Position numbers and translations under genes: made by a program. Under the pieces are notes generated by a model. The model did not search any database. It saw only the letters and a program-made list of their open reading frames with translations, and was not told where the DNA came from. This document shows, in pieces, positions 682-63,482 of a stretch of 64,000 nt of DNA. The stretch comes from Kappaphycus alvarezii (taxonomy: Eukaryota; Rhodophyta; Florideophyceae; Gigartinales; Solieriaceae), in NCBI GenBank assembly GCA_002205965.3, contig NADL03000754.1:496001-560000 (forward strand), in the 5' to 3' direction. Position 1 is the first letter of the stretch. Every line of letters starts with the position of its first letter.

Positions 682-1030
682 TATTCAGGTCTTTTGAATG
701 AGTCTGGGTGGGTCTAGTAGAAACTAGTTCAACCTCTCGAAGAATCAGTCTTATATACTGTTCGCTATGCACCCGACCCTTCCTCCTCTGATGTGAAACT
801 TATCGACGATACCCATGCCTGACGGATCCATTGCTGCATTCTGGGTCCTCGATAAAAATTCATTTCCACTGCAACGGCTAGATAGACTACAGATGTCAGC
901 GAATGGAGCAGTAGGGTCTTGCTTACTGTGCAAGGAAACAGTTGGACTTAGTTACACCCATTGCTCTGTTCCGCCCGCATTACTGTGTCGGTTCAACTTT
1001 GTCAGTCGAATGTGGTTGTCTGGAAAACTT
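682..1030. other. Intergenic, nothing recognised
   Basis: Short overlapping frames occur on both strands, but none shows a domain, codon preference or repeat relation. I see no gene here. Confidence 0.4.
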
Positions 1031-1036
1031 AAGGAT

Positions 1037-1085
1037 AGATCGAATGTATCTTCCAAGAGTAAAAACACCCAAACCTTCCCCCCAT
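1037..1085 (+). repeat. Solitary 3'-terminal module, subtype 3
   Basis: Contains GATCGAATGTATCTTCCAAG, then TAAAAACACCCAAACC and a CTTCCCCCC end. This is the module found at LINE-A 3' ends, but no LINE coding sequence precedes it. No target-site duplication was found for this copy. Confidence 0.65.
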
Positions 1086-1624: not shown

Positions 1625-2210
1625 GTAAGAGAGTTACACCTCCATATGTCTGTGGTACAGTAAAGTAAAATAATTAATACTTTATGGCATCAGTATAACG
1701 GGTGTCCGCTGCAGCAACGATTTGACAAGGAGTTCTGGACTTAAAGTAATGAAAATTTCAGCGAGCAAGTTTTGTGCAATTGGAGCTTGAAGTCGTTACG
1801 GCTACGATAGTTGCTTGAACAACTTTCCTTCTATTGCAGGATCCATTCTGAACCACATGATTCCATTCAAATTCTTCAAGCTTAAATCCTCTTTTGAATA
1901 ACGGTCCGTCAGCTAGGAGATACCAGATCAGCCTGGTAAGAAATGCAACTTTGGCAGTGTCAGTTTCTGAAATGGGACTGCAAGCTGAAAGCGAGCCTAA
2001 GACCCACAAAAAAGCCCGTCAGAGTAGACTCCATATCACAGCTGTCTATTTTTACTCTATCCACCAAAGAAATAAATCCCTTGGAGCCGCTCCAGCTCGA
2101 CAGTTCATTGCCTCCCCATCCTCCAAGTCAAAAACTTTCACCTCGCTAATTTCTCTTTCCTGTATTTTTCTTAAGGCCAAGCCAAGGTAATCGTGCCCTT
2201 TCAGTACGCA

Positions 2211-3781: not shown

Positions 3782-4252
3782 ATGGGACGCACTGGCGCAA
3801 CAGACTTCTTCAATGTCACCTTCGTCAACCCCCTAGCGCCCTCGAACAGGAGAGTAAGGACTTTCAACCCACTCACCTCGCTCAACGCAGCAAGAACGGC
3901 GAAACACAGAAGATACGAGTCCTTCATCCCGTCTTCCGCCAGAAGGCGGCATAGATCGGATATATCTTCCAAGATTAAAACACCCAAACCTTTCCCCTCG
4001 CTAGTAGGCTGTCCCCGTCCCCATCTCTACCCTCGGAGGATGACACCCGGACGCCCACGCGTTGCTAACCGATGTCGCACGCAACGTCGCTACGAGGGAA
4101 AGGGAGACCTAGGCAAAGGTCAAACAAGTCTTAACACAGCGTCATGCCGCAGCGGCAGCGATGTCCAATGTGGCGTGCCTGTTGGCTGGCCTCCAGCCAG
4201 TTTTCTAGCGTTTTGACGGCTTCCCGCCAATCCTTTACATTGTAAGCTTTTA
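3782..4252 (+). pseudogene. LINE family A RLE-domain fragment interrupted by a terminal module
   Basis: Encodes GATDFFNVTFVNPLAPSNRR and then FNPLTSLNAARTAKHRRYES, the RLE signature shared with copies at 21713, 22689 and 42531. Compared with the 22689 copy, about 57-60 extra bases (3944-4001) sit between TCTTCCGCC and AGTAGGCT. They consist of the subtype 3 terminal module, after which LINE homology resumes (frame-shifted) to about 4216. The LINE-A 3' untranslated tail then stops near 4252, where an antisense LINE-B 3' end begins. This is a dead, 5'-truncated, nested copy. Confidence 0.7.
3944..4001 (+). mobile_element. Micro-insertion of subtype 3 terminal module inside LINE-A
   Basis: The insert contains GATCGGATATATCTTCCAAG, TTAAAACACCCAAACC and TTTCCCC. 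Its limits are defined by comparison with the uninterrupted copy at 22838-22862. It has the same orientation as its host. No clear target-site duplication was seen, but insertion is evident from the comparison. Confidence 0.7.
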
Positions 4253-6663: not shown

Positions 6664-7660
6664 TAGATTGTTACGATTCGCTTCGTCATATTGCTATGTA
6701 AACGAGCCCGCATTCCTGTGGATAAGTAGTCACAACATAAGACGCGTCTGTTGGACCCAATAGGGATAAAACCTCGGAGGCTTCCTCTTCGACCTGGTGC
6801 TGCACCCTATTATCCTCAAAATACAATAGCTCTTCAGTTCAGAGGAAGGGGAGAACAGAGATCTGGCAAAACTGTTACTTCAAGTGTGGTACCACGATGA
6901 CGGGTATATTATCGGGCGCCACGACCATCTCGTCCAAGCCATCGAAGTACTTCCCTCTGTGGATGCTGAAAGCCGAGGATTGCACTTGCAGCTGCCAAAG
7001 TACACCGTCTGATGGTCTACAGTCCCTCTAGGGTCAGTACAGAGTCTCTACACAGACGTTTTAAAGCAAGATTACAGCGAGGGTAATTCCGTTCTGACCG
7101 CCCCCGTAGGTAATAAGGAATACACCACACGGTCCTCTTAGAACCATGTATTATCTCTCAAACCATTCCTCGAGCCCATCTCTGACCTTGAGAATAGGTG
7201 TCTGGCGTTCCGGCTACTGCGTAACTGTTTTGTCGTTTGCAAAGTAGGTTATTTTTTGCGCGTACTGCCCCCATCCTGCACCGGAGAAGGAGCGGAGGAT
7301 TTTGACAGGATGATGGAATACTGTTTTCGATAATTCGTAGGGGCAGTACTGGAATCGGATGTATTCCATGAAGTCCAGCTGCCGGTCAAACCAAAGGACA
7401 AGAAAAAACAATCTCTTGGGCTCGGACTCACCTCCGCGAAGAACATTGCGGCTGCGTCATTCTTGGCTTCTAGCTCATCATCTAGCAAGCTTTACAATAT
7501 ATTGCTCCCAACTCCTTTTAAGGAACTGCTAACATACGAAGCAGCTGCAGACGCCCATTGGAGGTGTTCGGCCTCCTGCTTTCCGTCTATATTTATCCCG
7601 TTCAGTGTAATTTGCTCGCAAAAAACACCATCGCCAAAGACGCTGACGAACGCAATTTGA
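6664..7660 (+). pseudogene. LINE reverse transcriptase, C-terminal half of palm and thumb
   Basis: Read across several frames, the segment shows FLWISSHNIRRVCWTQ, then LGGFLFDLVLHPII (after the GDP-type motif, where a stop replaces part), WYHDDGYIIG (the YxDD catalytic motif, here HDDG), RGLHLQLPKYTV and later LGLTSAKNIAAASFLAS. This order matches RT motifs 4-7 and the thumb of R2-like algal and fungal LINEs. Many stops and frameshifts mark it as a pseudogene. The missing upstream palm half is not found nearby on this strand. It probably belongs to family A or B, but the window does not show which. Confidence 0.6.
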
Positions 7661-8555
7661 TAGTGGTAAATCGTCGGGAGAAGAGATAGCCGGAACCAAT
7701 TACCTCAAGAAGAAGTTGTTTCAAGCACAAAAGTGCTGCTGTGATATAGTTCAGGGAACAAAAAGGAATGGGCAAGGAAGACAGTTGAGAGGGCTACAAG
7801 CAAGTATACAAGGAGCAGGGTCTACCACTGTTGCTCTGTGATCAGCGTAAGAAAAATGGTTCGTGGGTCTGAAGTTGACTCTCATTTTCCTACTACTCGG
7901 GACTTGACTTGAAGTTGCCTGCCAACTTGCTTGACATCCACAAGAGGAAGCAGTTTAATCAGCTTATATAGACTTTTTGGCTAACCATAAAGTCTCAAAT
8001 AAACATATTCAGTACCACAAAATACACTAAAGGGGATCGTGTGGACGAAAGACACTAGTAGAAGATATTTCTTCAAGGTAAATATCTAGGTGTCAGACCC
8101 ATGCCCGCCACCCATCGGCCAGGGGTGGGAATTGATGCGGCAATTATATAAGCCTTTCATGGTCACCCTTAGTATGACCCATAATCTGGACGTGTACTGA
8201 AATCTATTAATGACAGCGTGTCTTAAAATAAAAAATAAACCCGTGAACTTGCCACACTCATCCAAATTGAAAATATATCTCAAATTTAGATACTTTAAAA
8301 GTATCTCGCAAATTCCAATACAATATCCGAAATTGGTCCTCTTCTAGATTTTTTTCGATTCAAGTTTAGTCCACATCAACCGGAAGCGTAGAAAAGGGCC
8401 ACGGATGTGACAAGGGGGTTGGAAAGGGGAGAGGCCAGAAACTTGGTTATTGGAAAGGTTGAGATGGAACTCGAGGGGACCTCTTCCTAGCTGGATGAAA
8501 CGGATGTCTGCGGCGGCTTGGGACGAAGAAGGAAAATTTTACCTTCACCTGCATT
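7661..8555. other. Intergenic, nothing recognised
   Basis: No coding signal seen. A small hairpin (AGATACTT, loop TAA, AAGTATCT) lies at 8287-8305. Confidence 0.4.
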
Positions 8556-22224: not shown

Positions 22225-22688
22225 GTGGTTTGGTGGACACGTGTGGCTGCAAAACACGTGGTGGTGGCACTTGGTGCGGATAAATTAGATGCAACTGCGG
22301 GTCAGGGTATAAATACTGTACGTACATGTACAGTACAGTGTATCCTCGTGATGGACATATTCTGCAGTCTGCAAGGCGTTCACAACTCTGATGCCTTGCT
22401 CGGTATTCGCCTAAATCCCAGTGGTTTCCCATGTTCCTTGTTTCAAACTAATCCATCCGATGGGGGCGGCGCAAACGCTGCGCTATGTGCCCAAACACTA
22501 TCGCCGATTTATCTCGTTCGCAAAGTCTGCATAAAGGTAGAGGATGAGGGCCCTATCTGAGGTGACGCATAGCCACCACAGCTGCCGTAGTCAGCAGTAA
22601 TCTTAAGATACTGGAATATGCATTGCAAAATTGTCTGGTCATGAAACAAGGTCTGGAACAGTCGTTCAAATAGTCCGATATTCGCGCA

Positions 22689-23057
22689 ATGGGACGAACT
22701 AGCAGAACAGACTTCTTCGACGTCACCTTTGTCAACCCCCTAGCGCCCTCAAACAGGAGAGTGAGGACATTCAACCCACTCACCTCGCTTAACGCGGCAA
22801 GAACAGCGAAACACAGAAGATACGAGTCCTTTATCGCGTCTTCCGCCGGAAGTAGGCTAGTGCCCGTCCCTATCTCTACCCTCGGGGGATGGCACCCGGA
22901 CGCCCACGCGTGGCTAACCGACGTCGCACGCAACGTCGCTACGAGGGCAAGGGAGAGCTACGCAAAGGTCAAAGAAATCTTAACACAGCGTCATGCCGCA
23001 GCAGCAGTAATGTCCAATGCAGCGTGCCTGTTGGCCGGCCTCTCGTCAGTTTTCTAG
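22689..23057 (+). pseudogene. LINE family A RLE-domain fragment
   Basis: A 122-codon open fragment: RTDFFDVTFVNPLAPSNRRV, FNPLTSLNAARTAKHRRYES, VPISTLGGWHPDAHAWLTDV and ACLLAGLSSVF. It is the closest relative of the interrupted copy at 3782 and is used here to define that insertion. The ATG at 22689 is not a true start, since the domain is internal to a LINE polyprotein and the copy is 5'-truncated. Confidence 0.75.
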
Positions 23058-23084
23058 CGTTTTGACAACTTCTCGCCAACCCTT

Positions 23085-23172
23085 TACATTGTAAGCCTTT
23101 ACCATCACGACATCCCTTAGGGAACAGCTGACCATATTTTTCATGCATTAAAAACACCCCAAATTTCCCCCA
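23085..23172 (+). repeat. LINE-A 3' tail with subtype 2 terminal module
   Basis: Runs from TTTACATTGTAAGCCTTTAC through CCCTTAGGGAACAGCTGACC to ATTAAAAACACCCCAAATTT and CCCCC. It directly follows the 22689 copy. CCCTTAGGG is a short perfect-arm hairpin candidate. Confidence 0.8.
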
Positions 23173-27122: not shown

Positions 27123-28157
27123 TCAGCCTTCCACATCCTCCTCTACCCTCTTAATGTCCCTGACACACAACTTTCTCCCCGGCGCAGGCGGCTTTGTACT
27201 GCGTTCCTTGAGCGCCCTCCACAATTTCCTCTCTGCATTCAATCGAGCATCAATCTCAGGCGGCAGTTTAGGGTAGTCCAACGTACGGTTACCGACATCA
27301 CTGACGTTACTCTCTCCCAGAAACGGCACAATCTCCTTGTGCATATCACCCTTGAAATCATCTTGATACAGGTCCACCACCTCATCCACAATCTCAACAA
27401 TCCTCGCAATCCTCTCATCCGTGTCATCGCCACATCGCCTGCCCCTCCCATCATAATAATTCAGCAGCACACATTCCGGCACCCTTGACATCCACTCTGT
27501 GTAATTCACCCTCCAGTCAATCCCATAATGCGTCGCCTTGTGCTGAATATTGTAGCGATACGCGCTCCTCCAGCGTTCCATAGGCTCCCTATTACTGGTT
27601 ACCACATAATAATTCTTCTTCTTCAAACATTCTACAGTTGAAAAATTAGCACTCAAATGCCCCAACAATTGCCTCGCCTCAACATTCCCCTCACACACCC
27701 CGTCCGCATACGGGCCACAACTGAGCAAGCCACAGCGATAATCCGAATGCCCCAAAGTAGCCACCCACCACCTGGCCGCCTCTGTCACAGCGGTACTGCC
27801 CGTTTTCGGGGGCTTGTAATACAGAATAAACTCCTGACACGCGCCCGGTCTCACCGACTGATCATCCGAGGTATCCATTTTCAAAACCGCCTTGACAGGA
27901 GTCTTTTGTGCGGGCAGAGACGAGGAGGGGCGAAAGTTGAGCGAGGAGGAAGGTTTGTCGTCAATGGAGGACGAAGAGTAGGGATTATCGGGAATGAGGG
28001 AGGAGGCGACGGCGCGAGCGGTGTCGGTGACGGGCTCGGTGAGACGGGAGGTGGGGCCCATGGATTGTAGCTTGAGATATATGTCGATGAGTAGGACGAT
28101 AATGCCGACGACGGCAAAGTAGGGGAGGTAGGGGCTGCTTCTTGTGCGCAACTTCAT
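27123..28157 (-). CDS. Type II membrane (Golgi-type) sulfotransferase
   Basis: An intronless ATG frame of 344 residues. A short basic cytoplasmic head precedes one membrane segment (residues about 12-29, YFAVVGIIVLLIDIYL), as in Golgi sulfotransferases. A Ser/Pro-rich stem follows to about 105. The PAPS-binding 5'-phosphosulfate loop is YKPPKTGSTAV (Lys118, Ser121, Thr122). The 3'-phosphate loop is SNREPMERWRSAYRYN (Arg190, Ser198). Both spacing and sequence fit carbohydrate sulfotransferases, which transfer sulfate from PAPS to sugar hydroxyls in the secretory pathway. NFS, NYT, NVS and NRT are possible N-glycosylation sites, and many Cys residues lie in the lumenal part. In a red alga the likely substrate is a cell-wall galactan (inference). 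Length and motifs are complete and no decay is seen. Confidence 0.85.
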   Translation of the reverse strand: MKLRTRSSPYLPYFAVVGIIVLLIDIYLKLQSMGPTSRLTEPVTDTARAVASSLIPDNPYSSSSIDDKPSSSLNFRPSSSLPAQKTPVKAVLKMDTSDDQSVRPGACQEFILYYKPPKTGSTAVTEAARWWVATLGHSDYRCGLLSCGPYADGVCEGNVEARQLLGHLSANFSTVECLKKKNYYVVTSNREPMERWRSAYRYNIQHKATHYGIDWRVNYTEWMSRVPECVLLNYYDGRGRRCGDDTDERIARIVEIVDEVVDLYQDDFKGDMHKEIVPFLGESNVSDVGNRTLDYPKLPPEIDARLNAERKLWRALKERSTKPPAPGRKLCVRDIKRVEEDVEG

Positions 28158-32219: not shown

Positions 32220-32740
32220 TTCTCACCTGGCCTTGCCAAAGGTGCTCGGCACCCGGTCATGGGGCCCGGTCCTAATGGTCAACATCGCACCAGGCCAGAT
32301 TTCAGAGCTAGAGGGAGCACCGGAGGGGCAGACTTCTTCGACGTTACATTCGTGAATCCACTTGCTTCCGCAAGCAGACGGGCCCGATATTTAACGCCTT
32401 GACATCTCTAAGCACCACGAAACGTCAAAGCTCACAAAAGTATCAAGAGTTTATCACTACGCATGCCAGGTCCCGACTGATCCCAGTGCCAATATACACT
32501 CTTGAAGGGCGGCACCGGACGCATTCGCGTCGTCGGGTTGATTTTGAATGCCAATTTATCCTACAGTACTACTACGATACCGGAAATTCGTACGTGAGCA
32601 CCCCCATTTGTAATGAGGGGGAAAAATTGGGGTGTTTTCATGATTGAAAAATAGGTTAGCGTATTTGTAATGATATCTCGAGAAACAATTTGCAATTTAA
32701 TCTGAAAAAAGCCGCTTGTTTGCTGGCTGGCCTCCCTTCC
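32220..32740 (+). pseudogene. LINE family A RLE fragment carrying an insertion
   Basis: Frame one gives LAKGARHPVMGPGPNGQHR, RTRPDFRARG (the RPD catalytic motif) and GGADFFDVTFVNPLASASRR. After a frameshift near 32390 it continues KYQEFITTHARSRLIPVPIY. The family's C-terminal signature AACLLAGLP resumes only at 32705-32735. The roughly 140 bp between carries foreign sequence, including the module insertion at 32617-32662 and a Tc1-like terminal sequence near 32562. Confidence 0.65.
32617..32662 (-). mobile_element. 46-bp micro-insertion of subtype 1 module
   Basis: Reads (minus) ACGCTAACCTATTTTTCAAT, then CATGAAAACACCCCAATTTT and TCCCCC. It is bounded by a perfect 11-bp direct repeat ATTTGTAATGA at 32606-32616 and 32663-32673. 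Nothing but the terminal module lies between the repeats. Confidence 0.85.
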
Positions 32741-42480: not shown

Positions 42481-42530
42481 ATATAGTTGACTGGTGGCAA
42501 TAACGTTACATTACTTGCTAAATAATTTAT

Positions 42531-43073
42531 ATGGTCTTCGACTGCCACGGGGATCACCTCATGCACTGCCTGCATGGTGAGCACCGCACCCGACGACACA
42601 ACCTTCAGGTCGACCTTCTCGCCCAAGAACTCCAGAAGGCAGCCCGTCATCCGGCTATCGAGCGGCGACAGGGGCTTCACCGCACAAGGCCGGATATCGA
42701 GGCAATGGGTAGCAACGGAGGAACGGACTTTTTTGAAGTCACGTTCGTCACTGCTCTTGCGCCCTCCAATAGGAGAGTGCGTACTTTCAACCCACTCACC
42801 TCCCTCAACGCAGCCATCTCCGCCAAACGTAGAAGGTATGAACCACTGCTCGCGACTGCTACTAGAGGGAGGCTTGTGCCTATACCAATATCCACCCTTG
42901 GAGGATGGCACCCAGACGCGTACGCGGTGCTAACCGATGTCGCGCGGAACGTGGCCGTTCGAGCGATGGAGACCTATGGGATGGTTAGAGCGGTTCTTAC
43001 CCAACGGCACGCTGCTGCGGCCGTCATGTCCAACGCGGCATGCCTGCTCGCCGGCATTGAGCCTGCCCTGTAA
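42531..43073 (+). pseudogene. Best-preserved LINE family A 3' end (zinc motif + RLE domain)
   Basis: One open frame of 180 codons. It begins VFDCHGDHLMHCLHG and RTRRHN, the Cys/His zinc motif that precedes RLE endonucleases in R2-like LINEs. It then shows ARHPAIE, RTRPDIEAMG and GGTDFFEVTFVTALAPSNRR (the catalytic RPD and D-x-F-F-E-V pair), HRRYEP-like KRRRYEPLL, STLGGWHPDAYAVLTDVARN and ACLLAGIEPAL. The protein would nick target DNA for target-primed reverse transcription. The copy is truncated just upstream of the zinc motif, so the RT is absent and the ATG at 42531 is incidental. The intact frame suggests a fairly recent insertion into the AT-rich block. Confidence 0.8.
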
Positions 43074-50294: not shown

Positions 50295-50358
50295 CTTGGT
50301 CCTCCGTTGAAGTCTCACATATTATCAGTCACTCGTTTTCCCGCGGCTCTTTTACCCA

Positions 50359-50389
50359 TCTTCCAAGAATCAAGAACCCAAACATTCCG
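50359..50389 (+). mobile_element. 31-bp micro-insertion of terminal module
   Basis: TCTTCCAAGAATCAAGAACC, then CAAACATTCCG, flanked by a perfect 11-bp direct repeat TCTTTTACCCA (50348-50358 and 50390-50400). It is the shortest member seen: a 5'-shortened, partly diverged subtype 3 module. Confidence 0.75.
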
Positions 50390-50939
50390 TCTTTTACCCA
50401 GAATACTGAAATAGTACTAATTATATCGTTCAATAATCAATTACGTAAGGTTTAGTAATGAGTGTTTCGAAACGCCAACTTACTCCACTGGTCATTCTTA
50501 TTTATATATTGACATTATTAGCTAATCTAGCCGATTTATATTAACCGAAAATATTTTTTCTATTTTATTTGATATGTCAAGTGACTTCCCCCCAGCCAAC
50601 CCGTGACTGCTTCATGTAGCATCGGAGACAGCTGACCATGTCTTTCAAATACGAAATTACCCTAAATCTTACCCCACTTCAAGTGGTGACACGAGAGACA
50701 ATATTCGATATCTTCCGGCACCCTGAAATTTCCTTTCCGGCAGATCCATGCATGTTCCTTAGTGATCAAATTTTAGCTCTATGTTTCAATAGAAGTACGA
50801 ATATTGCATTTAGTTGCGTTGAACTTCAAAACTTGGAATGGTAAGAAGTTCGACACAGAACAGCAAATACAGATACAATAATATATGGTATGTATTTCCC
50901 GAGCAAGAAACTGGGAAGACATCTTTAAGAATCTGCAGC

Positions 50940-51539: not shown

Positions 51540-51589
51540 AATTGGGAAAAGGTTTGGGTGTTTCATTCTTGGAAGATTTATCCGACCTA
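51540..51589 (-). mobile_element. Solitary subtype 3 module, about 50 bp
   Basis: Plus strand GGGAAAAGGTTTGGGTGTTT, then CATTCTTGGAAGATTTATCC. A 7-bp repeat TAAACAC (51533-51539 and 51590-51596) flanks it, weaker than the best cases. Confidence 0.6.
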
Positions 51590-52029
51590 TAAACACTGTA
51601 AACGCAGTCAACGCTAAGTGGTGAAGTTAAGGGCACAAGACGCCGAGCTCAGCCTTTTGCCTACGCACAGAAATGCTTATGACTAAAGTATCTCACTAAA
51701 TGAATATACCACAGAACGCTTAAGATTCCTTACAGTTGCACCTACACCATAGGTAATGACGGGAAACGTGACGGGACACGCAATGCGCTGTAGGCAGCCA
51801 TGTTTTACGATCGTTTCGCCGGAACGAACTGAAGCTTTGAAAAATGATCCGGCTTATTCCAGGATAACGCCACCAAGGATTATTCAGGCCGAATTGTTGG
51901 AAAAGAAAATCAAATGGTTAAATTCATATGTGTCAGAATGCGCTTATTGTTTCAGTGCTGAATCCCTACAGACCCTTGTTTCTTCTGCTCATTTCAAAAA
52001 AATCAATTGTTTCTTTCTCCTGTTCCTCC

Positions 52030-52349: not shown

Positions 52350-53118
52350 CCATGTTGCTCCATACTGAGAGCACTAAAATTTTAGGATCTTTGCACTAAT
52401 GCGCACTGAAGTGCTCAAGGTGTAAGACGATACTTTCTTGTTTTCTCAGAGCCCCAACTGTTATTCAATAGTATAATCGGAGTTGGGCCTATGTTCTGGG
52501 ATTTGTCTGCCTCCGTTTTTTTCTTTGGCAGTTAATTCGCGTTGATTTTGAAGGTAGCAATATAATTAAGGCCTATTTTAACTGCGCAAGGTCCAATCAA
52601 TCCGTTTCGGTATGGAACGGGTCACAGGGCAGTTGGATAACGCCCAAAGCCACCAATATCCCTTTTTCTGGCCGTAAAACTGTTGGAACAAATGGCTGGT
52701 GAACCTCGAGGTCAAAATGGAGTTGCATGGTACCTGAGGCCGAGGGTTTTTAGGTTTGGAGGAATCCTAATATAACTAGCATTCTTTTAATTTTCGGGCC
52801 CTGAGAGGGTTTCGAGTACATTATTTTCAGGTGAATTTGACGAAATGCGTTGGTAAGAGGTATTGGCGTTAAAGCAGGACTTGCACACACGGCCGCAACT
52901 CTTGTACATTGGGATGGAGATTCTTGCAATGATGCTAACTGGAAAGAAAACTTACTTCATACGGTTACATACTGTTCGTCATCACAGCTTGCAACCATGC
53001 AATAATTTCAGTCGCCAAGAGAAGATTCCTGGCATATGATACTCTTTATTCAAACTTTTAGTGGAGACCAGACTATACTACCCATCCTCTAACGTATGGC
53101 CTATTAGTTGTTCAGGAA
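52350..53118. other. Upstream region of the 469-residue gene
   Basis: No gene, module or GTAC island recognised. It must hold the promoter of the following gene, but no TATA box stands out. Confidence 0.35.
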
Positions 53119-54528
53119 ATGAGTTTGGATCTTCGAGACATTGAGAGGGGTGTTGGGGCAGATTTAATGCGTAGGCCGATTGTTTCCAGTATTGTCAATG
53201 CATGCATTCTTCGCTTTTATTGTGAGACCCTCGGTCAAATTGAAGAATCCGCCCTCGAATCAGAGGAAGATGGCGAAGACTCTATTCTTCGTAAAGATTG
53301 GTTTGTGCCATTGGTTGCCTCAGCGACATATATTGTTGTGCATATCTTCATGGCTGTCGGAGTACTGGAAACAATATTCTGGGTATTGACGGCAATAATC
53401 TTTAAGCTGTTCCGACTTCCAAGAATTTATGCTTTCGAAAAACTCATTTTGGACGTAAAAGTGCTTCTCTCAAAAGGAAGCGTTCGACATGTCGAAAAAA
53501 CCATTACATTTCGTTCTCGTGACGGCACTGGCCTCCAAGAGCTGCAGGCATCTCGAACTGGTTTCGGAGGACTTGTCCTTACCACAATCACATGCGATGA
53601 CATCATGACAAGAGACACAAAGGCCCTTTTTCGTCTCATCCGCTACATTAACAAGCCTACAATCTGTTACTGGAGTGAAGGATTTGTAATTATGGCGGGC
53701 AACCACACCGAGATAGTTGATGCTCTTTGCAACATAGGGACGAAGGCTGCGACAATTGATCTTGGCTGGCACAAGGATATACAAGAGAAAACGGTGTTCA
53801 AACTAAGCGCAAAATTCACCAAAGAAGTTGTCCCAGAAAAGGAGACTTCAGTCACAGTAATTAGCAGACGAAGAATTGTGGTGGAAATTGAAGCTGAGGA
53901 GAAAACTGAAGACATGGAACTACTTGTGCAATGCATGGATCAGTTTGCTGCAGTATGCGAATCTGGTGAGAGAGGGGTGCGGCAGTTTAATGGGAAGCGT
54001 ATATCTATCTATGGCGTTGGTATTGTTATTTCCGTCGCGTTAATTTTCCGATATGAAGGATTTGAGGGTCTAGTCAAGCCGTCCGCAGATGTTCTCACTC
54101 TTGCCGTAGGTGCGTACACACTATGGATGACCCTCGGCAAGAGTGCGGCCCTAGGTGAAACAGAAGAAAAGACAGTACTTCATATCCCAACGCGGAAAAA
54201 TTTGCTGATGACATATCACGGACTCGCAGATATTGAAAATAACGTTAAAAACGTGTGTTGGGTGCCAGATATATACAGAAGTCCTAAAGAAGTGGATGAA
54301 GATCGTGAGGAAGTGGACGGATCTATTACAATGCTTGAAGCAGCTATTTGTCTAAGCATTTTCAACCACTTTGGACATCTTGTGAAATGGAAAGGAAGAA
54401 GACTGAAGCTTGACGTGTTCAGAGTGACAATGGGCCTGAGGGCATTGCACATATTGAGAGCGTCGATAGGGTCCGTACCGTCAATGAGCTTTCTGGAATA
54501 TCGGCTGGTTGCATCGCTCCAATGTTAA
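53119..54528 (+). CDS. Unrecognised 469-residue membrane protein
   Basis: A complete ATG frame without introns. Residues 1-60 are acidic near the end (ESALESEEDGEDS). Residues about 63-98 form one or two membrane segments (LVASATYIVVHIFMAVGVLE then TIFWVLTAIIFKLF). Residues about 110-280 are a soluble middle with mixed alpha/beta character. ISIYGVGIVISVALIFRY (about 299-316) and VLTLAVGAYTLWMTL (about 327-341) are further hydrophobic segments. The end is an amphipathic region (ITMLEAAICLSIFNHFGHLV). I recognise no family or catalytic motif. Intactness over 1.4 kb in a repeat-rich setting suggests function. A lineage-specific family is possible (inference). Confidence 0.7.
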   Translation: MSLDLRDIERGVGADLMRRPIVSSIVNACILRFYCETLGQIEESALESEEDGEDSILRKDWFVPLVASATYIVVHIFMAVGVLETIFWVLTAIIFKLFRLPRIYAFEKLILDVKVLLSKGSVRHVEKTITFRSRDGTGLQELQASRTGFGGLVLTTITCDDIMTRDTKALFRLIRYINKPTICYWSEGFVIMAGNHTEIVDALCNIGTKAATIDLGWHKDIQEKTVFKLSAKFTKEVVPEKETSVTVISRRRIVVEIEAEEKTEDMELLVQCMDQFAAVCESGERGVRQFNGKRISIYGVGIVISVALIFRYEGFEGLVKPSADVLTLAVGAYTLWMTLGKSAALGETEEKTVLHIPTRKNLLMTYHGLADIENNVKNVCWVPDIYRSPKEVDEDREEVDGSITMLEAAICLSIFNHFGHLVKWKGRRLKLDVFRVTMGLRALHILRASIGSVPSMSFLEYRLVASLQC

Positions 54529-54689
54529 GAATTGGCTATCCTAAACTCATCCCTTTTGGACCCCCCTTAAACCAGAACCTGTTCAAGGCACAGCAAATCA
54601 ACAATCGAGAGAAGATGGACATCAGGGCGATACCACAGGCCATATTCCAAAAGATACTTACATTCATATGTAGCTACGACAAACAGACA

Positions 54690-54741
54690 AGGGGGAAAAA
54701 TTGGGGTGTTTTAACGACTGAAATTTAGGTTAGCCTATGTT
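54690..54741 (-). repeat. 3'-terminal module, subtype 1
   Basis: Plus strand GGGGGAAAAATTGGGGTGTT, then TTAACGACTGAAATTTAGGT and TAGCCTATG, close to 22181-22224 reversed. No LINE coding region is seen to its right and no clear target-site duplication. Confidence 0.7.
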
Positions 54742-55690
54742 CCAAAACATGCAGACTTCAAACATCTCGTGATCATCTGCAAAACGACAAATTAGAGAAA
54801 GCAATTGCAGCCCTGCATTTGTTTTCTAGCTCTAACTGCAGCTTGCTGCGAGAGATTGAAATTCACAGTCAGAGGCTATTGCCAACAATATACTGAATGC
54901 TCTTCTGAAGTTATGTCTTTCCTGCTAACGCCAGAGTGGTTTCGCCAATTTCTAATGGTCTTCGTATGGATCCGACATGATTTCCGTGGATGCATTACTT
55001 CACACAACAACTGGCCTCACTTCAGGAAATTACCTTATTTTCAAAGTAATAAACTACTCACTCTCCCCCCTTACACAACGCCCACCTCCTAAACTCCCTC
55101 CGTTTCAGCCCCCCGGAGTTTCACAGTAATCGCATCCACTATTCTTTACTTTGCAGCTTTAATAAGATAAACAATGGAGTTTATTCAATCACAACAATAG
55201 TTTGCATGCAATCACATCTTCATGTGATACGTAAAGGGAGATATGCACCAGTCTTGTCTTGTTTGTCTTCAGGGGATATCAATCAATTTATGGAGTCGAT
55301 TCGTAAAGTATAACGGAATCGGACATCGAATCGAACGGGAATCAACTAGGAAGGTGCACAATGCAGTTGTACTGTCTGTTTGGCCGCAGCTGTTTTAGCC
55401 CTTCATGGGACCTATCGGAACCCTCCGATTATTGAATTGAAAGGTCTGGGGCCGTTATTATTGGCCCCTTTTTTCAAGTGCAAGCTATGAACGGATTTGG
55501 CCCCAAAGATTTTTGAAGTCAAGGAATGTTACGAACGTCTGTAAGTAAATTTCTGTGTTATTAAAAAGTTGCAAAAAGGGAGAAACCGACCATTACTGAT
55601 GCAACTGTGACGGTGTAGTGAGCTCGAAGTGCAATGCTTTCTGTCTCAAGTTTCGTTTCCAATCATGGGTTCATACTTGATCACTCAGTT
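54742..55690. other. Intergenic, nothing recognised
   Basis: No gene or repeat relation seen. Confidence 0.35.
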
Positions 55691-55694
55691 ACAG

Positions 55695-55870
55695 CGGGGG
55701 AATGTGGGGTGCTTTAACACTTGAAAGATATAGCCAGTTGTGGCCCAGAATATCCTAAAGGGTGACCAGTAGTATCTCTTAATTTTCCCTAAAAACCCGG
55801 CTCAACTCCAACCAGCAGGTACGGTATGCTGCGTTGGAAATTACATGGTTGCGGCAGTTACCGCAAGAAC
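55695..55870 (-). pseudogene. LINE-A 3' end, minus strand
   Basis: The terminal module (GGGGGAATGTGGGGTGCTTT, 55696-55715) is followed, reading right, by TGTGGCCCAGAATATCCTAA. This matches the reverse of 52275-52303. The complement of 55800-55840 then matches the last RLE codons (ACGCAGC...GAGCC). It is the only antisense LINE-A coding remnant recognised. Confidence 0.6.
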
Positions 55871-55889
55871 AGAAATGGTTTGTTCCAAG

Positions 55890-55932
55890 GGAAAAGATTT
55901 GGGTGGTTTAGTCTTGGAAGATATATGTGATC
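55890..55932 (-). mobile_element. 43-bp micro-insertion of subtype 3 module
   Basis: Flanked by TGTTCCAAG (55881-55889) and TGTTCTAAG (55933-55941), a 9-bp duplication with one mismatch. The insert contains only the terminal module, GGAAAAGATTTGGGTGGTTT then AGTCTTGGAAGATATATG. Confidence 0.75.
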
Positions 55933-56097
55933 TGTTCTAAGTAACCCAGAGGACTTACCTCTCTCGCAAAGTTGAGGCGGAAGGAAAAGGAGCCAAATGC
56001 AATACGATTGCCCCTTTCCCCTGGACACGCTCAGTTTTCAGCAGTCTCTTTCAGTAGCTTGACAGCAGCTCTACCGTGGCCAGCATCTCCGTTACAG

Positions 56098-56140
56098 GGG
56101 AAAAAGGCTTGGGTGTTTTACTCTTGGAAGATATATCCGA
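56098..56140 (-). mobile_element. 43-bp micro-insertion of subtype 3 module
   Basis: Flanked by a perfect 10-bp repeat TCCGTTACAG (56088-56097 and 56141-56150). The insert is GGGAAAAAGGCTTGGGTGTT then TTACTCTTGGAAGATATATC and CGA. Confidence 0.9.
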
Positions 56141-56179
56141 TCCGTTACAGTAAATAAACCCTTCCTTTCTCTACTGTCA

Positions 56180-56570
56180 CTCGCCACATCTCGTCAAGTA
56201 CGGTTACCGCAGGCGCTGCCGCGACACTCGCAGAGCGCTAGAAACATCGTTATTTAGGCACTTACTGCGACAAAAACGATATCCTCCTCTCCCCTGTCGG
56301 GATTGATATCTATGGCGCCTTGGGCGACAATGGCCATGGTTTTATCCGCCGCCTTGGTTCCTTCGCTGCTTCCCGTCGCGGTTTCTCCCCTCAACAGGAG
56401 CTTTGCTACTTCGTTACCCGTTTTGCATTCAGTCCCTCAGTGATGTAGGCGCAACGGGTTTCCCCCACCGCCTGCATTCGTAGGCAATTTCTGAATACCT
56501 TCCCCACGCTACTGTACCAGACTGTACAACTCGTAAAGATCTACCACTGATTATAGTAGATATTTAGGAC
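56180..56570 (+). pseudogene. LINE-B 3' end, plus arm of an inverted pair
   Basis: TVTAGAAATLAER, HRYLGTYCDKNDILLSPVGI and DIYGALGDNGHGFIRRLGSF match the minus-strand protein at 4262-4895. The tail ends TGTACAACTCGTAAAGATCT near 56542. A stop (TAG) replaces Glu after LAER. Confidence 0.7.
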
Positions 56571-56619
56571 GGCTATTTTCCGAAGACGTATGGGGGACAG
56601 GTCTGTGTATTAGTGGTGG

Positions 56620-56900
56620 TAAATCTTTATTAGTTGTACAATGTTGCGCAGAAGCGTGCGGAGGGTATTCGGAAATTAACTACGAATGGGGGCGACGGGT
56701 GGAAACCTGTCGCGCCTGCATTACTCGCAGACTAAACGCAAAACGGGTAACGAAGTTGCGGAGCTCCTGTTGAGGGGAGGAACCGCGACGGGAAGCAGCA
56801 AAGGAAGCAAGGCGGCGGAGATGCCTTGCCGTCATCGCCCAAGGTGCCATAGATATCAGTCCCGACGGGGGAGAGGAGGATATCGTTTCTTTCGCAGTTA
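56620..56900 (-). pseudogene. LINE-B 3' end, minus arm of the inverted pair
   Basis: The complement of 56624-56700 matches the plus arm's tail (TGTACAACTAATAAAGATTT). The segment up to 56900 encodes NDILLSPVGTDIYGTLGDDG on the minus strand. The two arms point at each other tail to tail across about 60-80 bp. Confidence 0.7.
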
Positions 56901-56946
56901 GGGGGAAATGATTTGGTGGTTTACATTTGAAAGATACGTACGGCTA
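56900..56946 (-). repeat. 3'-terminal module next to the LINE-B 5' truncation
   Basis: GGGGGAAATGATTTGGTGGT, then TTACATTTGAAAGATACG. It abuts the truncated 5' edge of the minus LINE-B copy. Confidence 0.55.
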
Positions 56947-57033
56947 AGTTCCGGAGTTATCGAGATAGTGACTACGTTGTAAACATGAGTTAGCATGTGC
57001 GGCAGACCGCCACTCACCATCGCTACTTACTGA

Positions 57034-57620
57034 ACCACCGCCTCCGCAAGGTCCATCTCTTCTGCTTGGTAAACTGCGTCATCGACGCCGTCGCCGTCTT
57101 CAGAGTTGAAGTCAGACCAATCCATCCATGTCAAAGGCACCCAGAGGTGCAAAGTTCCGTACGGCCCCGTAAGAGCCAGGCCGGTGGCCATCTCCGTCCC
57201 CGTATGACCTCACCGCGCGCCCAGTTGACGTCTGCCCATAGACGCCTTCGGGGGTATTTTTGATAGGGACGGCTTCCAGGGAAGATAGGGGCTGCTCATC
57301 ACCAGATGATGACAGGCGTGAGGGGTTCGCTAGACACGAAGGGTTGACCGGGGGATTGTCCCTGTCGGGAGCCCACGGAGCAGAGTCCACTTGCAATAGG
57401 TCCACATTAGTCGCAAAATCCGAGCCCTTACTAACCTCGCCCGCGCGCCCAGCTGACGCCTTCCCCTAGACGTCTTCGGGTGTGTGTGTGATAGGGGCGG
57501 CTTCGAGGGAAGATAGGGGCTGCTCATCACCAGATGGTGACGGGCGTAAGGGGTTGGGTAGACACGGATTGTTGACCTTGGACTTACTTGCGTTCAATTG
57601 AGACTTAAGAGAGATGGCCA
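57034..57620 (-). pseudogene. Hypothetical protein with internal duplication, one nonsense codon and one frameshift
   Basis: A minus-strand frame runs from about 57620 to 57112 with one in-frame TAG at 57466-57468. Two repeats of roughly 48 residues share NP-x-R-x-S-x-SGDEQPLSSLEA-x-PI and TPE-x-V. The second has Tyr where the first has the stop. At 57112 a frameshift leads into an acidic tail, DWSDFNSEDGDGVDDAVYQA then EEMDLAEAVVQ and a stop. The N-terminus is lost or lies beyond the inserted module at 57623-57670. I do not recognise the protein. It could be a host gene or a transposon accessory frame. Confidence 0.45.
57208..57577. repeat. Two direct repeats of about 142 bp
   Basis: 57208-57349 and 57435-57577 share GGGAAGATAGGGGCTGCTCA then TCACCAGATG and the flanks GCGCGCCCAG and GTTGACC, with about 85 bp of unique sequence between. 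Confidence 0.8.
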
Positions 57621-57622
57621 AG

Positions 57623-57670
57623 GGGGAAAGGTTTGGGTGTTTTACACTTGGAAGATATATCCGATCTATC
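57623..57670 (-). mobile_element. 48-bp micro-insertion of subtype 3 module
   Basis: Flanked by a perfect 10-bp repeat GATGGCCAAG (57613-57622 and 57671-57680). The insert is only the module: GGGGAAAGGTTTGGGTGTTT, then TACACTTGGAAGATATATCC and GATCTATC. Confidence 0.9.
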
Positions 57671-58129
57671 GATGGCCAAGTGAAGAGCAGCAAAGTGCCG
57701 TCTTGCGCGTTGTACCGGTAGTGCGATGCCCAGCAAAGGGGGAGAAGAAAAAATCCACCACCACAACCGTGGAGAGCCATGGGTTTAGTATGAAAATTGA
57801 AAAATTATCTTTACAAGTATTGGAACACTATTTAATTGGTTTTCGATATGGAATACAGCGATGAAAAATTGTGGAACAATTTCTATCAGAGGTCAACAAT
57901 TTTTTTATTTATTGTGAATCGTCGAGAATAATTTCATCTATGTTTCACTAGCCCATTTTTATACTGTATTACTCGTGAAGCAATTCTTATGTCTTTCAGT
58001 TTGATTTTATATTCTGCAGTTATAATTAATGGAATTATATTGCCAGCAAATTATTATTCGGATTAATGCTCATCTGGATAATTATTCTATAATTATTATT
58101 GAGCATGAATTTGGTCTACAATAATTATT

Positions 58130-58330
58130 ATACTGCTGGAATCATCTTTGTAGCGTTCTACTCTGACCTGGGGTATAAATAGTCTAGGCTTTTAGATAAT
58201 TTTAGCAAGCCCCGGGCCATCGAACTATCCCCTTCGATCAATAAATATTGGTTTCATTTTTATTATTATTCTCAATCCTATTCAGGTAATTTATTATTCA
58301 TTTATTTGGAATTATCTATTTTGAATCTAC
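58130..58330 (+). repeat. LTR/leader of the AT-rich copia-order element
   Basis: Matches 23600-23860. Contains a TATA-like GGTATAAATAGTC (58170-58182) and an AATAAA (58241-58246). The exact LTR borders are not resolved. Confidence 0.5.
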
Positions 58331-58354
58331 GAATATCATTTAATTTTTATAGCT

Positions 58355-59290
58355 ATGGGCCCAGATCGCCCCGAACTTCCTTCAAGGCCGAAATTTTCAT
58401 GGGATCTCAGAGCGGCTCCTTTGAGGGATGGTAAAGGACCTCAAGAAAAATATTTTGATGCTGTACACAAATGGAAATGTTTCTGTGATTTATTACCAGC
58501 ATTCAATTTTAATAAGGTTCCGGAATTAGTACAAGATCTTGATTTATAACCACAATTATATGGACGAGCTCTTGATATCCGTAAGAAAATTCCAGATACA
58601 GAAATTAAATCTGAAAATGGTGCATCGGCGATTGCCAACGCTATTCATATGGTGGATTCTCTATCATCAATATCTGATACATTTCAAAAATTTCTGTATC
58701 TTTTGCACACTACTGGTGGTGATAATGAGTCTTTCAAAAATTTGAATCGCGGTTTAATGCTCAAATTGCCCGATTTCATTCATCTATTGGCATCTCGAAA
58801 TTACTTGAAGCACTGGTATCATTTCAACTCCTGGCTAACTCGAAAATTAATTCAAACCAGCGAGTATCTGTTTTGGCTGCTGCATCTCCGAAGCACAATG
58901 AAGAAGCCGGTATGGAAAAAGGAAAATTTTCAGAATTAATTAAATATTCCGAAATATCATCTATTATTCCTGCATTCGATAAACCGAAAAACGTAAGAAA
59001 AGATAATGGGAATTCGCAAAAATACGTTCCTTCATATCAAATAAATATTTCGTATGGAGAAAAGAAAAACTTCAAGAGAAACCCAAGCATAAACTACTCC
59101 CTGAAGAATTCGCAGCACTAAAGGAAAGATCAACTTGTGATCGATGTAGTGATAATGGAAATTTGGCTTATGAAAAAGATAAATGCAACGGTACTAAAAA
59201 TTTTCCAAAAATTGAAAATACCAAAAAAATCAAAAACAAAAATATGCGTGGTTCTGTAACATTTCATATGGCTAAAACTGTGATTTATTC
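58355..59290 (+). pseudogene. Gag of AT-rich copia-order retroelement
   Basis: ATG 58355 opens MGPDRPELPSRPKFSWDLRA, then KYFDAVHKWKCFCDLLPAFN. A stop at 58547 is followed in frame by PQLYGRALDIRKKIPDTEIK, ASAIANAIHMVDSLSSISDT and later segments. CDRCSDNGNLAYEKDKCNG (about 59134-59190) looks like a zinc-knuckle remnant. The sequence is very A/T-rich, matching its AT-rich surroundings. Confidence 0.55.
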
Positions 59291-59299
59291 CCCACCAAA

Positions 59300-59670
59300 C
59301 TAATTTTACTCTGGCTCGTTACTTGATGATGGAGCACCGTATAGTGGAATGGGAATTGCTGAATTACGAGCACTTTCAAAATTTATTTTACCTGAATGGA
59401 CTGGAAAACTAGATGATCTTCCAGAATCTATCAAAGAAACCACCTTCTTGCAATATGGAAATGGAGCTCATCCAAGCCAAAATAGAAAAACAATCGGCTC
59501 TATATTTCTATAAGCTATTTCAGATAATTCTAATAAAGTCAAAATAAGGCATCTGATAATTCGTGGATCATCGCAATGGATTATCGGAAGAAATGTTACA
59601 AAAAAGTCAAATATTATTCATATGGCCGGTAACCAAATAGAGTTCAATTCCGCAAATAATTAAACCGACT
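59300..59670 (+). pseudogene. Aspartic protease of the same element
   Basis: FYSGSLLDDGAPYSGMGIAE has D-D-G-A in place of the usual D-S/T-G-A. HLIIRGSSQWIIGRNV, a typical protease C-terminal G-R-N/D motif, follows near 59560-59600. A TAA precedes FYSGS and another interrupts the middle. Confidence 0.6.
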
Positions 59671-59698
59671 CGATAACATTGGTGGATCATGGTCATCA

Positions 59699-61250
59699 TT
59701 GCAATGTTCCGGGAAATATATTTACACAAACCTCCGACCGTATGGAAAATTCATTTCTATCAACTATTTGTTCCAACAATATCAGTACAACAAAAAAACA
59801 TGTTGGGCGGAAACAAAGAAAATAATTAATGAGGTCTACAAACATGTATCTGGTCACTCAAATTATGATTATATGAAATTATTTTGGAAAGAAATTTTAT
59901 CTGGGACAATGAATGTAAAAAATATTTATCAAACATAGTTGACACCTGCAAATTTTGCAATGTCACAAAAAAACCATCTCATTCTCGTACAAAATGTAAA
60001 AGTTCTCTTTCTCGCGGATGTAATGAATTGGTATGTGTGGATCACATTTTTGTGGAAAATTTGGATATTTTTCACATCATGGACTCAGTTACCAGATATT
60101 CTACTGGTGCTATTGTGCCCTCCTTGAAAATGGAAAATTGTATTCATTGTTTTGAAACTCTCTGGTTAACACCCTTTTGGGACCCTAATAATATAATGGG
60201 AGATCAGGCGCTTGAAAATGATATTTTAAAAAGCTATCTAGAAGAAAAAAGGATTTTATTTTGTCCTATCGGTTCTCGCCGCCACAGCAAAAATTATATT
60301 GAATAGAAACACAAAATATTAAGAGATATATACCTACGCTTAAAATTATCCGAACCACAGGGAAATGATACTGTTCGCGTTTCTCGAATGTTTCAAATAT
60401 CGAATGATTTACATGGAAACGATGTTGTCTCTTCATACGAGCTCGCCACTGGTCACATCAGACCCATCGATAATACTGGTCCTCAAAATATACCGAATGA
60501 TTTAAAAAGTGCTCATGATGAGCTAATTTCCAAGAGGAAATTAAACCTTATCCTGAAATCGAAGTCTGTGACCGATATTCCAATTAATATTGGCGATATT
60601 ATGGAAACTTTTATTCATAAGCCAAACCAAAAAAGAGGATCGTGGTCATCTACAAAACCAGTCTTAAAATTTGACCAAAAAGCTCTTATTTTTACAGTTT
60701 CTGGATACAATGGAAGAATTATTAACGTAGCATTAACGCAGCAAGACGTTCTTCACTCAGTCTCATCACATGAACTTGCGTATCAAATTCAAAAAGCAAA
60801 TGAGTTATTGAATGAGTCAATTGGTAATTCTTTTGATGAAATTTCAGAAAATGGTGAACAATTAAGTACTTATGAAATCAGGAATTTATGTGAAAACAAT
60901 ATTGAGGAACATTTCGATGACTTTGGTTTTAATCAAACTGAGGCAGAAAATGATGAAAATACTTCAGAATCTAAAAATTTAGTATTTCTTGAAAATGAAC
61001 CGATTGAGACCGAAAACAACTTTCTTAAGCCTGAATATTTAATTCACATTCCATTGAATGAAAATTGTGCTACTGATGCTCATGAAATTGAATTATTACC
61101 TGGAACAGAATTGAAATATTCGGAAAAAGAAGATGTGGATCTTTATTATAAGAGGTTTAGATCTAAAGAGTTTTTACTCCATCAAGCATCGGGACTTCCA
61201 TCTCACATTATTTCAAATGATTACAGCACAGAAAAAAACAATTTGTAAGA
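59699..61250 (+). pseudogene. Integrase with long C-terminal extension
   Basis: HVSGHSNYDYMKLFWKEI and CKFCNVTKK give a His/Cys zinc site. VCVDHIFVENLDIFHIMDSV, TRYSTGAIVPS, NIMGDQALEND and GSRRHSKNYIE provide the D-D-E triad (Asp in VCVDH, Asp in GDQ, Glu in NYIE). A TAG follows NYIE, but the frame reopens at 60307-61248 with an acidic 300-residue extension ending LPSHIISNDYSTEKNNL. Unlike most of the element, this extension is uninterrupted. Integrase before RT gives copia order. Confidence 0.7.
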
Positions 61251-61254
61251 ACTT

Positions 61255-61570
61255 GTTCGAAAATTCATATTTCAGAACTTTCTCCGGACTCAAATGTAAT
61301 ATCCAGTCACGTCTTATACAAGATTAAATTCTAGACACGGTGCCTTTTTTCAAGGCACGGATTGCTCCGCATGGAAATGAGGTCAAGGAGAAAACAACCT
61401 AAAGACAGATTCAGAAACTTGTTCCCCAATGGCAATTAGAATTATTTTATCAATTGCTACAATTTTGAAATGAAATTTGTCAGAGGCCGATTTCAAATCA
61501 GCATATTTGCAAATTAGATCAGCACAACGGAAATTTTATGTAAGAACGCCTCGAGAATTCACGGAAAATA
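61255..61570 (+). pseudogene. Start of reverse transcriptase, truncated
   Basis: Across frames: NVISSHVLYKIK, FKARIAPHGNEVKEK, and SEADFKSAYLQIRSAQRKFY then VRTPREF. These match the first RT motifs of copia-like elements (K-A-R-x-x-P-H-G, D-x-K-x-A-Y-L-Q). RT stops there and no RNase H or 3' LTR follows, so the element is truncated at about 61570. Confidence 0.6.
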
Positions 61571-61693
61571 TAATTATTGCTATATTTAAGGCGAATTCTA
61601 ATTGTTACATTCGGTTTATACATTTTTGGTCTTGGTTTAAAATCGGTGGTTTATATCCCTCAGTTATTTTTTATGTTTTCCGAAGAGTCATTA

Positions 61694-62545
61694 TTACAGT
61701 CTGTACACAGAGATGGCTGCACGAAACTGGGACGGTTTGTGGTTCTGGAAGGTAGAGAGAACAGAGACACGAACGAAACGCTTCTGACTACCTCCGAAAA
61801 GGCTGCGGGTGGCATTACGAACAGTGCCTACAAACTTATGGGCTAGGCGGGCGTCGCCGAGATCGCAATGCTCAGACAAGCCTTGACGTCTGAGGCGGGG
61901 AAGGCGGCGAATAGGATGAGTCCAGGCATAGCCTTTGGCCGCTGGAGGTTTGACCGCTTGCAGATACGGGGCCGGGGCTTTGGCCTAAGGACCTTCGTTA
62001 GGCAGGTTGGTGTCGGACGCGAAAGGAGAACATGGTGCCGAAACATCAACGCCGACAAGCGCGTTCAGAATATTCAGAACAGACCTAAAATGGATGTGGT
62101 TTTGGAAAGACGGCTTCAGCGCGTTGAACGTAGAGGTTTGCAGGGCGAATTCCAGGAAAAGACCGTTTGATGAGGGGTCTCAAGCAGTGAGGCGGACTTC
62201 GTAAAGAAATCCAGCGCGTCGTTTAAAAGAGCAACGACGGGGTTTTCTGTGAGTGGGAGCGAAACGGCTTTTTTTTGGCGCCATATAGTGTGGTGTGACG
62301 AGGGTTGGCACCAGGACCGACACCGGAAAGGTAACGAATGGGCGATACAGCGAGTGCAGGCGCGAGATCACTCGGGTATTCGGGACATCACAGACAAGAA
62401 ATCGTGGTACCCAGAAGAGGATATGTTTGAAAAACAAAAAGAGAGAGCAACAAAAACAGGAAGGATGAACGCGTTTCGCGATAAGAAACCCGCGAGCGCT
62501 GGTGCAAGACATGCACGGTGAGTGTCGGTGCGGCGGAGATGACAA
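61694..62545. other. GC-richer block with unassigned frames
   Basis: Open frames on both strands (62249-62521 plus, 62545-62180 minus, 61879-61694 minus). The last contains CDLGDARLAHKFVGTVRN, faintly like the N-terminus of IS4-type transposases, but this is too weak to call. Confidence 0.25.
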
Positions 62546-63482
62546 GAGTAAAGTGGGATAGAGACGACAGAGAATGGTTACAGATGTTCATAATAGGTCG
62601 TAATGTACAAGTTCCCTCAAGATCAAATAACTAGAGAGTCTGATAATAAGGCAGAATCTGAAGGAAGCTGGAGAGAGGAGGTCCTCAGTGCCTTTTTTGC
62701 TGGCCGTGGTTCGAAGACCCTGGCCACACTTTTTATGATCATAACAGAAAATATGTGATGTTCGTCTAGCAGCAGAGAAGTAGTTAATTACTATTGTTTT
62801 CTGCATTGTGCACCTCGGCTACCCTGACGGTCTATATTAAGCGATTCAATGGCAATCACTTAGGTACGGGGGCGTAACTATTGGACAGCATGGCTTCCGC
62901 CAGAGTCCTGTACAGGGACATATGATTCTAGGTTTCTGTCAGAATCAAGCGGGACAATTTCACAGGGCTGGTGTGAGTGTCGGGATAACAGAGCCCGTTT
63001 ACTTTGAGTTGACTGGCTAGATGAAACTTTGTGAAACCAATGGCTCTTTCTGGCCGCTACTCGGCTGAACCCCGGTATTTATTTTACTCTAGGTAGGCTA
63101 GCAAAGACAGAACTACATTGACTAAGGATAACAGGGCGAGGTCTGTAGGAGACCAAAGGCCTGTGAAACAATGTAGATTCTAAAGTTTCGCTACCCAGCC
63201 AAGTATGGCAGCAAGGATACTACGATAGAAAGCAGACTTCGCCCCAGCAGGATAGACCTAATAGAGGAAGCGCTACCTATAAGGGGAGCCTAAAAGGGGA
63301 ATTGCATCATCACCCTATTTGAATGTGTATAGTGTGGGTGGCTAAGTTTCTCCCATACATTATTTGACAACTCAATCTACTATACTGTGCCTGACTTGAG
63401 TGGAATCGACTGGGCCACATTGGATATGATTAACAGTGAGTCCAGCGGTAAGGCATGCTTCGCTGGACGAAACCTGTAGTAA
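62546..63482. other. Intergenic, nothing recognised
   Basis: No gene or repeat relation seen. Confidence 0.35.

Follow-up and report, generated by a model that had tools for sequence, protein, structure and literature searches.

The locus raises the question of whether insertions of 31-48 bp, which consist of nothing but the 3′-terminal module of a LINE and are flanked by direct repeats, form a discrete minimal element or are the shortest products of LINE integration. To answer it, we analyzed the whole stretch of 64 kb (denoted the window), together with further copies of the module fetched from the same genome. Our preferred reading, to which we assign a probability of about 0.78, is that these micro-retroposons are extreme 5′-truncated copies of several related LINE families, whose early stop most likely lies with the enzyme complex itself.

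Micro-insertions in the window

The earlier note had described five such inserts with flanking direct repeats, and all five were recovered at the same positions, with the same lengths and repeats. They are listed here with the other features of the window that bear on their origin (TSD, target-site duplication).

32617..32662, minus strand (RNA sense): subtype 1 micro-insertion, 46 bp; perfect TSD ATTTGTAATGA at 32606-32616 and 32663-32673
50359..50389, plus strand: micro-insertion with a divergent module, 31 bp; perfect TSD TCTTTTACCCA at 50348-50358 and 50390-50400
55890..55932, minus strand: subtype 3 micro-insertion, 43 bp; TSD of 9 bp with one mismatch (TGTTCCAAG / TGTTCTAAG) at 55881-55889 and 55933-55941
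56098..56140, minus strand: subtype 3 micro-insertion, 43 bp; perfect TSD TCCGTTACAG at 56088-56097 and 56141-56150
57623..57670, minus strand: subtype 3 micro-insertion, 48 bp; perfect TSD GATGGCCAAG at 57613-57622 and 57671-57680
3948..3997, plus strand: subtype 3 micro-insertion, about 50 nt, within an older LINE-ORF repeat; its own flanking repeat has decayed (3 nt exact)
51544..51590, minus strand: subtype 3 micro-insertion, 47 nt; flanking repeat GTGTTTA, 7 nt exact
968..1083, plus strand: longer subtype 3 copy, about 115 nt, with an 11-nt TSD CCCATTGCTCT; the module is as in the micro copies but not solitary
22675..23171, plus strand: longer copy, about 500 nt, belonging to a related LINE family; the ORF C-terminus precedes the 3′ module
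42522..43073, plus strand: C-terminal part of a LINE-type ORF, open over 183 codons; H..H..C finger-like stretch, then RPDI-x10-DFFEVT

Read in RNA sense, four of the five inserts terminate in conserved sequence of the form ...TTAAAACACCCCAAATTTTTCCCCC, with the duplicated target directly after it. The exception is the 31-bp insert at 50359, which has a divergent 3′ stretch and only a weak match (11.7 bits, E 0.021) to a module profile derived from 16 copies in the window. With this profile 19 copies were identified in the 64 kb; E is ≤ 3.4e-4 for 17, and the other two are weak (0.021 and 0.22). By eye, the window copies sort into three main subtypes. The description of the inserts as holding nothing beyond the module is accurate for these five, but not for the window as a whole, where copies of ∼115 nt and ∼500 nt occur too. 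A paralogous copy of the older LINE-ORF repeat, at about 22660-23120, does not contain the 3948..3997 insertion, and the empty site lies near 22850.

The window also holds other repeats and ORFs. A repeat of about 365 bp is present once at 4270-4634 and as two inverted arms at 56182-56545 and 56615-56901 (86-89% identity), and a module copy, 56901-56936, sits at the outer end of one arm. Two 159-bp repeats form a tandem-like pair (57193-57349 and 57419-57577, 84% identity). A repeat of roughly 630 bp (7658-8089) was also seen in the fetched stretches L009, L010, L011, L018, L019, L021, L022 and L027; in L018 and L021 it borders on LINE pieces at almost identical positions of the ORF. The ORF at 27123-28157 (minus strand, 344 aa) has no Pfam match, is 76% identical to a EukProt transcript protein (GFKZ01) and has 12 further relatives; the ORF at 2193-3626 (plus strand, 477 aa) is a protein kinase (Pkinase, E 7.8e-39).

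The module ends longer copies behind an ORF

Aligned from the 3′ end, the subtype 3 copies follow one common sequence that reaches far upstream, with lengths from 38 to >580 nt; 580 nt was the longest piece looked at, so the upper length is a lower bound. A constant 3′ end is combined with a variable 5′ end, as for 5′-truncated LINE copies, and in longer copies an ORF precedes the 3′ module. In the subtype 3 consensus the stop codon of this ORF lies 124 nt upstream of the 3′ end. The C-terminus of the ORF is conserved among the subtypes (about 70% DNA identity) and is matched by 20 database proteins at E ≤ 0.001. The module had been taken for a LINE-type 3′ end, and its position behind the ORF at the end of longer copies bears this out.

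The C-terminal ORF and six relatives gave no match in Pfam, and the C-terminal ORF gave none against PDB sequences; its structure prediction is poor (mean pLDDT 43.7). An ORF of at least 100 codons with an RT motif (YxDD-like) was not found in the examined stretches of 2 kb or more. The finger-like stretch and the RPDI-x10-DFFEVT motif were recognised by eye only; they resemble the H/C finger-like stretch and RPD...D/E-V motif at the restriction-like endonuclease end of R2/R4-type LINEs, a likeness that neither these database searches nor the structure prediction bears out. Searches of the window with Rfam (gathering scores) and ARAGORN (bacterial code) gave no match and hence no indication of a tRNA, 5S or 7SL head, such as ordinary SINEs have. 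Collectively, 3′-anchored 5′ truncation, TSDs and the ORF make a strong but not complete case for regarding the parent elements as probable LINEs.

Further module variants (...AGTRAAGCACCCC...CCCC) were noticed beside the common sequence AAATAGCCGTCCT in two fetched stretches (L021, near 6457; L032, near 194); they possibly represent a fourth family.

Flanking repeats are target-site duplications

The longest exact repeat shared by the left and right flanks of each copy was compared with that found after the flanks had been dealt out anew. Over the window and the fetched stretches, exact repeats of at least 7 nt flanked 40 of 100 copies (1.05 expected) and repeats of at least 9 nt flanked 28 of the same 100 (0.16 expected), a set that included five near-duplicates and three copies of other subtypes and whose breakpoints came from a first 5′-end reference that included non-consensus sequence from one copy and was later replaced. 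Without those eight copies, repeats of at least 9 nt were present at 26 of the 92 sampled subtype 3 copies (0.12 expected), and an independent copy set yielded 18 of 49 (0.07 expected). The corresponding figures are 4/21 for subtype 2 and 1/20 for subtype 1, the weakest of the subtypes, with 0.00 expected for either. A looser search of 144 subtype 3 copies revealed an exact repeat of 8-13 nt at 54 (0.91 expected); an exact TSD of at least 8 nt is absent in the other 90, for which age and mismatches could be the explanation.

The first bases of the 54 exact TSDs of 8-13 nt are mostly C, T and T (30, 32 and 27 of 54), where a leading C can be part of the C run of the element itself. At the 5′ junction an overlap with the target of at least 1 nt was seen in 38 of 54, a figure that has no control for comparison. 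Duplications of at least 8 nt accompany micro copies (17/43) about as often as longer copies (37/101), which points to one integration route for both.

The earlier note had allowed that the repeats might be chance, in which case the inserts would be unrelated conserved motifs with fortuitously similar flanks. This is next to impossible, because the excess of TSDs amounts to two orders of magnitude and a paralogous empty site exists for the 3948..3997 copy; chance repeats are ruled out by these two observations, and the flanking repeats are real TSDs.

Abundance in the genome

The genome searched was a 336-Mb assembly of 884 contigs. Subtype 3 was found at 7,424 places with a 24-mer (≤2 mismatches) and at 4,775 with a 32-mer (≤3 mismatches), subtype 1 at 733 and subtype 2 at 1,160 (≤1 mismatch for each), counts that include places duplicating one another. 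Reversed-pattern controls gave 0 matches in all four genome searches. Searches with one exact pattern each in a genome contig and a viral contig collection gave no match.

Positions 52632-62659 of the window recur at 99.5% identity on contig C60, together with the module copies of that stretch; this 10-kb counterpart (G000:C60:410005-420004, L012) is either the alternate haplotype or a segmental duplication. Matches were also seen at regular steps of about 12.8 kb on G000:C3 (29745, 42512, 55274, 68029, 80787) and of about 10.5 kb on G000:C827 (105621, 116141, 126676), which suggests long tandem amplifications carrying a LINE copy.

Length distribution of the copies

Lengths of subtype 3 copies were determined in a sample drawn from 100 listed places, out of the 7,424, with an exact 24-mer at positions 11-34 (contigs C1-C42). 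The final sample of 86 combines 56 places outside the 32-mer list with 33 others, minus three near-identical duplicates, and leaves out 11 further places (nine on C3, one each on C4 and C5), some of which repeat a C3 copy. It is the least biased length sample that we have, and gave the following numbers of copies (median 116 nt).

34-37 nt: 0
38-41 nt: 4
42-45 nt: 6
46-49 nt: 8
50-53 nt: 2
54-57 nt: 1
58-112 nt: 19
113-120 nt: 11
longer: 35

Very short copies are clearly in excess: 20 of the 86 lie at 38-54 nt, and 38-52 nt holds 20 copies against 7 at 53-67 nt (binomial P 0.0096, uncorrected). The other two families contain the same size class. Among the first 20 listed places of subtype 1, nine lie at 42-50 nt and make up all of its class of ≤54 nt; in subtype 2 (n=21) nine lie at 36-50 nt (9/21 at ≤54 nt), within a broad distribution that runs on to 70 nt. 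Scaling the sampled shares to the genome counts suggests, as a rough extrapolation, roughly two thousand micro-insertions in the genome.

That the distribution has a true peak, and not just a steep fall or an excess of short copies, is likely but unproven, since the mode is drawn from small samples, with no correction of the tests for how the bins were chosen. It has to be weighed against plain 5′ truncation with smoothly falling lengths, in which short copies would be the commonest and least harmful and the mode would come from the lower limit of the search pattern. The wide length range fits such a course, copies of 31-32 nt exist (the 50359 copy, L024 and L063), and in the three families pooled the rise from 36-41 to 42-47 nt is only 8 v 15 (P 0.105); the lower length edge is indeed partly set by the 24-mers searched, for which copies need at least 34-36 nt. 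We nevertheless consider smooth truncation rather unlikely, because subtype 3, although all copies of at least 34 nt were eligible, has none at 34-37 nt and 4 at 34-41 nt v 14 at 42-49 nt (uncorrected P 0.015), the pooled numbers drop after 53 nt (30 at 42-53 v 14 at 54-65 nt, uncorrected P 0.011), and a separate cluster stands at 113-120 nt (11 of the 86, v 1 at 105-112 nt, uncorrected P 0.003). Alignment-derived lengths can run a few nt long by chance, as for the 48-bp copy at 57623, which scored 54.

An earlier peak test in 6-nt windows had indicated modes at 44-70 nt (20 copies vs a null mean of 12.2, P 0.0038), 90-130 nt (11 vs 5.4, P 0.0004) and 150-220 nt (7 vs 3.7, P 0.012) among copies mostly picked by the 32-mer. 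The 24-mer sample is preferred because the 32-mer needs at least 44 nt.

Probable truncated LINEs rather than a discrete element

The earlier note had itself set the rule that randomly distributed 5′ ends and a continuous length range up to full LINEs would make the inserts truncated LINEs. By this rule, the wide range up to long copies identifies the micro-retroposons as 5′-truncated LINEs and not as an autonomous micro-element, although the positions of the 5′ ends are uneven. The main sequence variants are common to micro and long copies. At the variable site of the module, GAGT and GTGT occur in 17/29 and 4/29 of the micro copies, in 26/32 and 1/32 of the copies of 55-120 nt and in 25/38 and 4/38 of those >120 nt, in a sample that was partly picked by a pattern carrying one of the variants.

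The clustering of the subtype 3 5′ ends near GATAGATCGG would fit a micro-SINE of about 48 nt, a discrete and non-autonomous element with a LINE tail and a source gene of its own. Such an element is very improbable all the same. The longer copies carry on past this cluster in common sequence and have the main variants in common with the micro copies, the 5′ ends vary over about 17 nt, and the size class seen in the other two families would call for a further two elements of this kind. The micro copies show neither a defined 5′ end of their own nor a source gene apart from the LINE. A discrete or autonomous minimal element, as entertained at first, is thus not supported, in view of lengths of 38 to >580 nt, of the variants and of the scatter of the 5′ ends. 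What stands of the uniform 5′ ends reported for subtype 3 is their non-random position; the uniformity is approximate, with breakpoints over about 38-54 nt. Likewise, the suggested fixed RT stop survives not as a single fixed point but, more softly, as an early zone in which stops are preferred and which is seen again in each of three families.

Proposed mechanism

From what was observed, namely the module with its TSDs, the range of lengths, the surplus of very short copies, the genome-wide counts and one paralogous empty site, we infer target priming, the identity of the reverse transcriptase and an abortive step. Target-primed reverse transcription (TPRT) would start at the element's 3′ end. 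In a large fraction of events synthesis would stop within the initial 38-54 nt, yet the stub would be joined to the target and leave an insertion of 30-50 bp flanked by a duplication of 8-13 bp. The stop would correspond to abortive initiation before processive elongation, rather than to one template roadblock. Because the same size class is found in three families that differ in sequence there, the early stop most likely reflects a property of the enzyme complex; it looks tied to the distance copied more than to sequence. The cluster of subtype 3 copies at 113-120 nt may be a sequence-set stop.

In the consensus strings, the final 36 nt lack G altogether in subtypes 1 and 2 and contain two G in subtype 3; their predicted fold energy is 0, and the 44-nt subtype 3 string has a predicted fold of −2.4. 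This G-poor 3′ end without a predicted fold makes recognition as a stem-loop unlikely. Folding of the 124-nt 3′ end is no more stable than that of shuffled sequences (z 1.06), and a roadblock hairpin at the stop zone was rejected on this ground.

Alternatively, the template might already be short: if LINE RNA were cut at the edge of its protein-bound 3′ end, a fragment of 40-50 nt could be fully copied. A protein footprint would give the same size in families of different sequence, and 5′ ends spread over several nt, as seen here, would be in keeping with it. The cluster at 113-120 nt would be left unexplained, and we regard a short template as improbable, though less so than the micro-SINE.

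The early stop of the enzyme complex can be put in a stronger form, which we offer tentatively and at somewhat less than even odds. TPRT may pass a discrete early checkpoint, comparable to the abortive initiation of RNA polymerase, at which about a quarter to half of the sampled integrations (20/86, 9/20 and 9/21) would end within about 54 nt of the RNA 3′ end, mostly at 38-54 nt and on any template; stubs would be joined efficiently, and insertions of 30-50 bp would be among the commonest products. Provided that the stop zone does not depend on sequence, the genome preserves a natural record of the points at which LINE reverse transcription fails and of how short a cDNA still integrates, and this bears on the workings of 5′ truncation and second-strand capture. 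Insertions this short likely escape the usual repeat annotation and pass as small indels or conserved motifs.

Comparison with known systems

R2-type LINEs encode a restriction-like endonuclease of the PD-(D/E)xK type and have a C-terminal H/C finger-like stretch with an RPD...D/E-V motif. By eye, the C-terminal ORF described here appears alike, with a finger-like stretch followed by such a motif; unlike those of R2, its copies are not site-specific, and the sampled ones lie in different flanks. In stringent-type LINEs, and in SINEs with a LINE tail, the 3′ end is recognised as a stem-loop. A conserved 3′ end common to several families, presumably the recognition site of the reverse transcriptase, is found here as well, whereas its last 36 nt are almost without G and have no predicted fold. 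Tailless retropseudogenes are likewise short retroposed pieces, but they derive from other RNAs and are without a tail, whereas the insert studied here is the LINE 3′ end itself.

For R2, copies truncated because reverse transcription was incomplete have been reported (PMC7650587). The closest likeness is offered by CR1 of Anolis carolinensis, for which many severely truncated insertions under 50 bp with their 3′ ends kept were reported; truncation was ascribed to a premature end of reverse transcription, and its probability is said to fall with distance from the 3′ end (PMC5389967). CR1 differs in belonging to an animal clade, and no mode at 40-50 nt is described in the part of that account drawn on here (PMC5389967). 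An earlier report of such a mode was not found in the literature searched, a search outside which most subscription journals lay. Taken together, ultra-short LINE insertions are already known in kind from Anolis CR1, and what is unusual here is how early copying stops, and at how similar a length.
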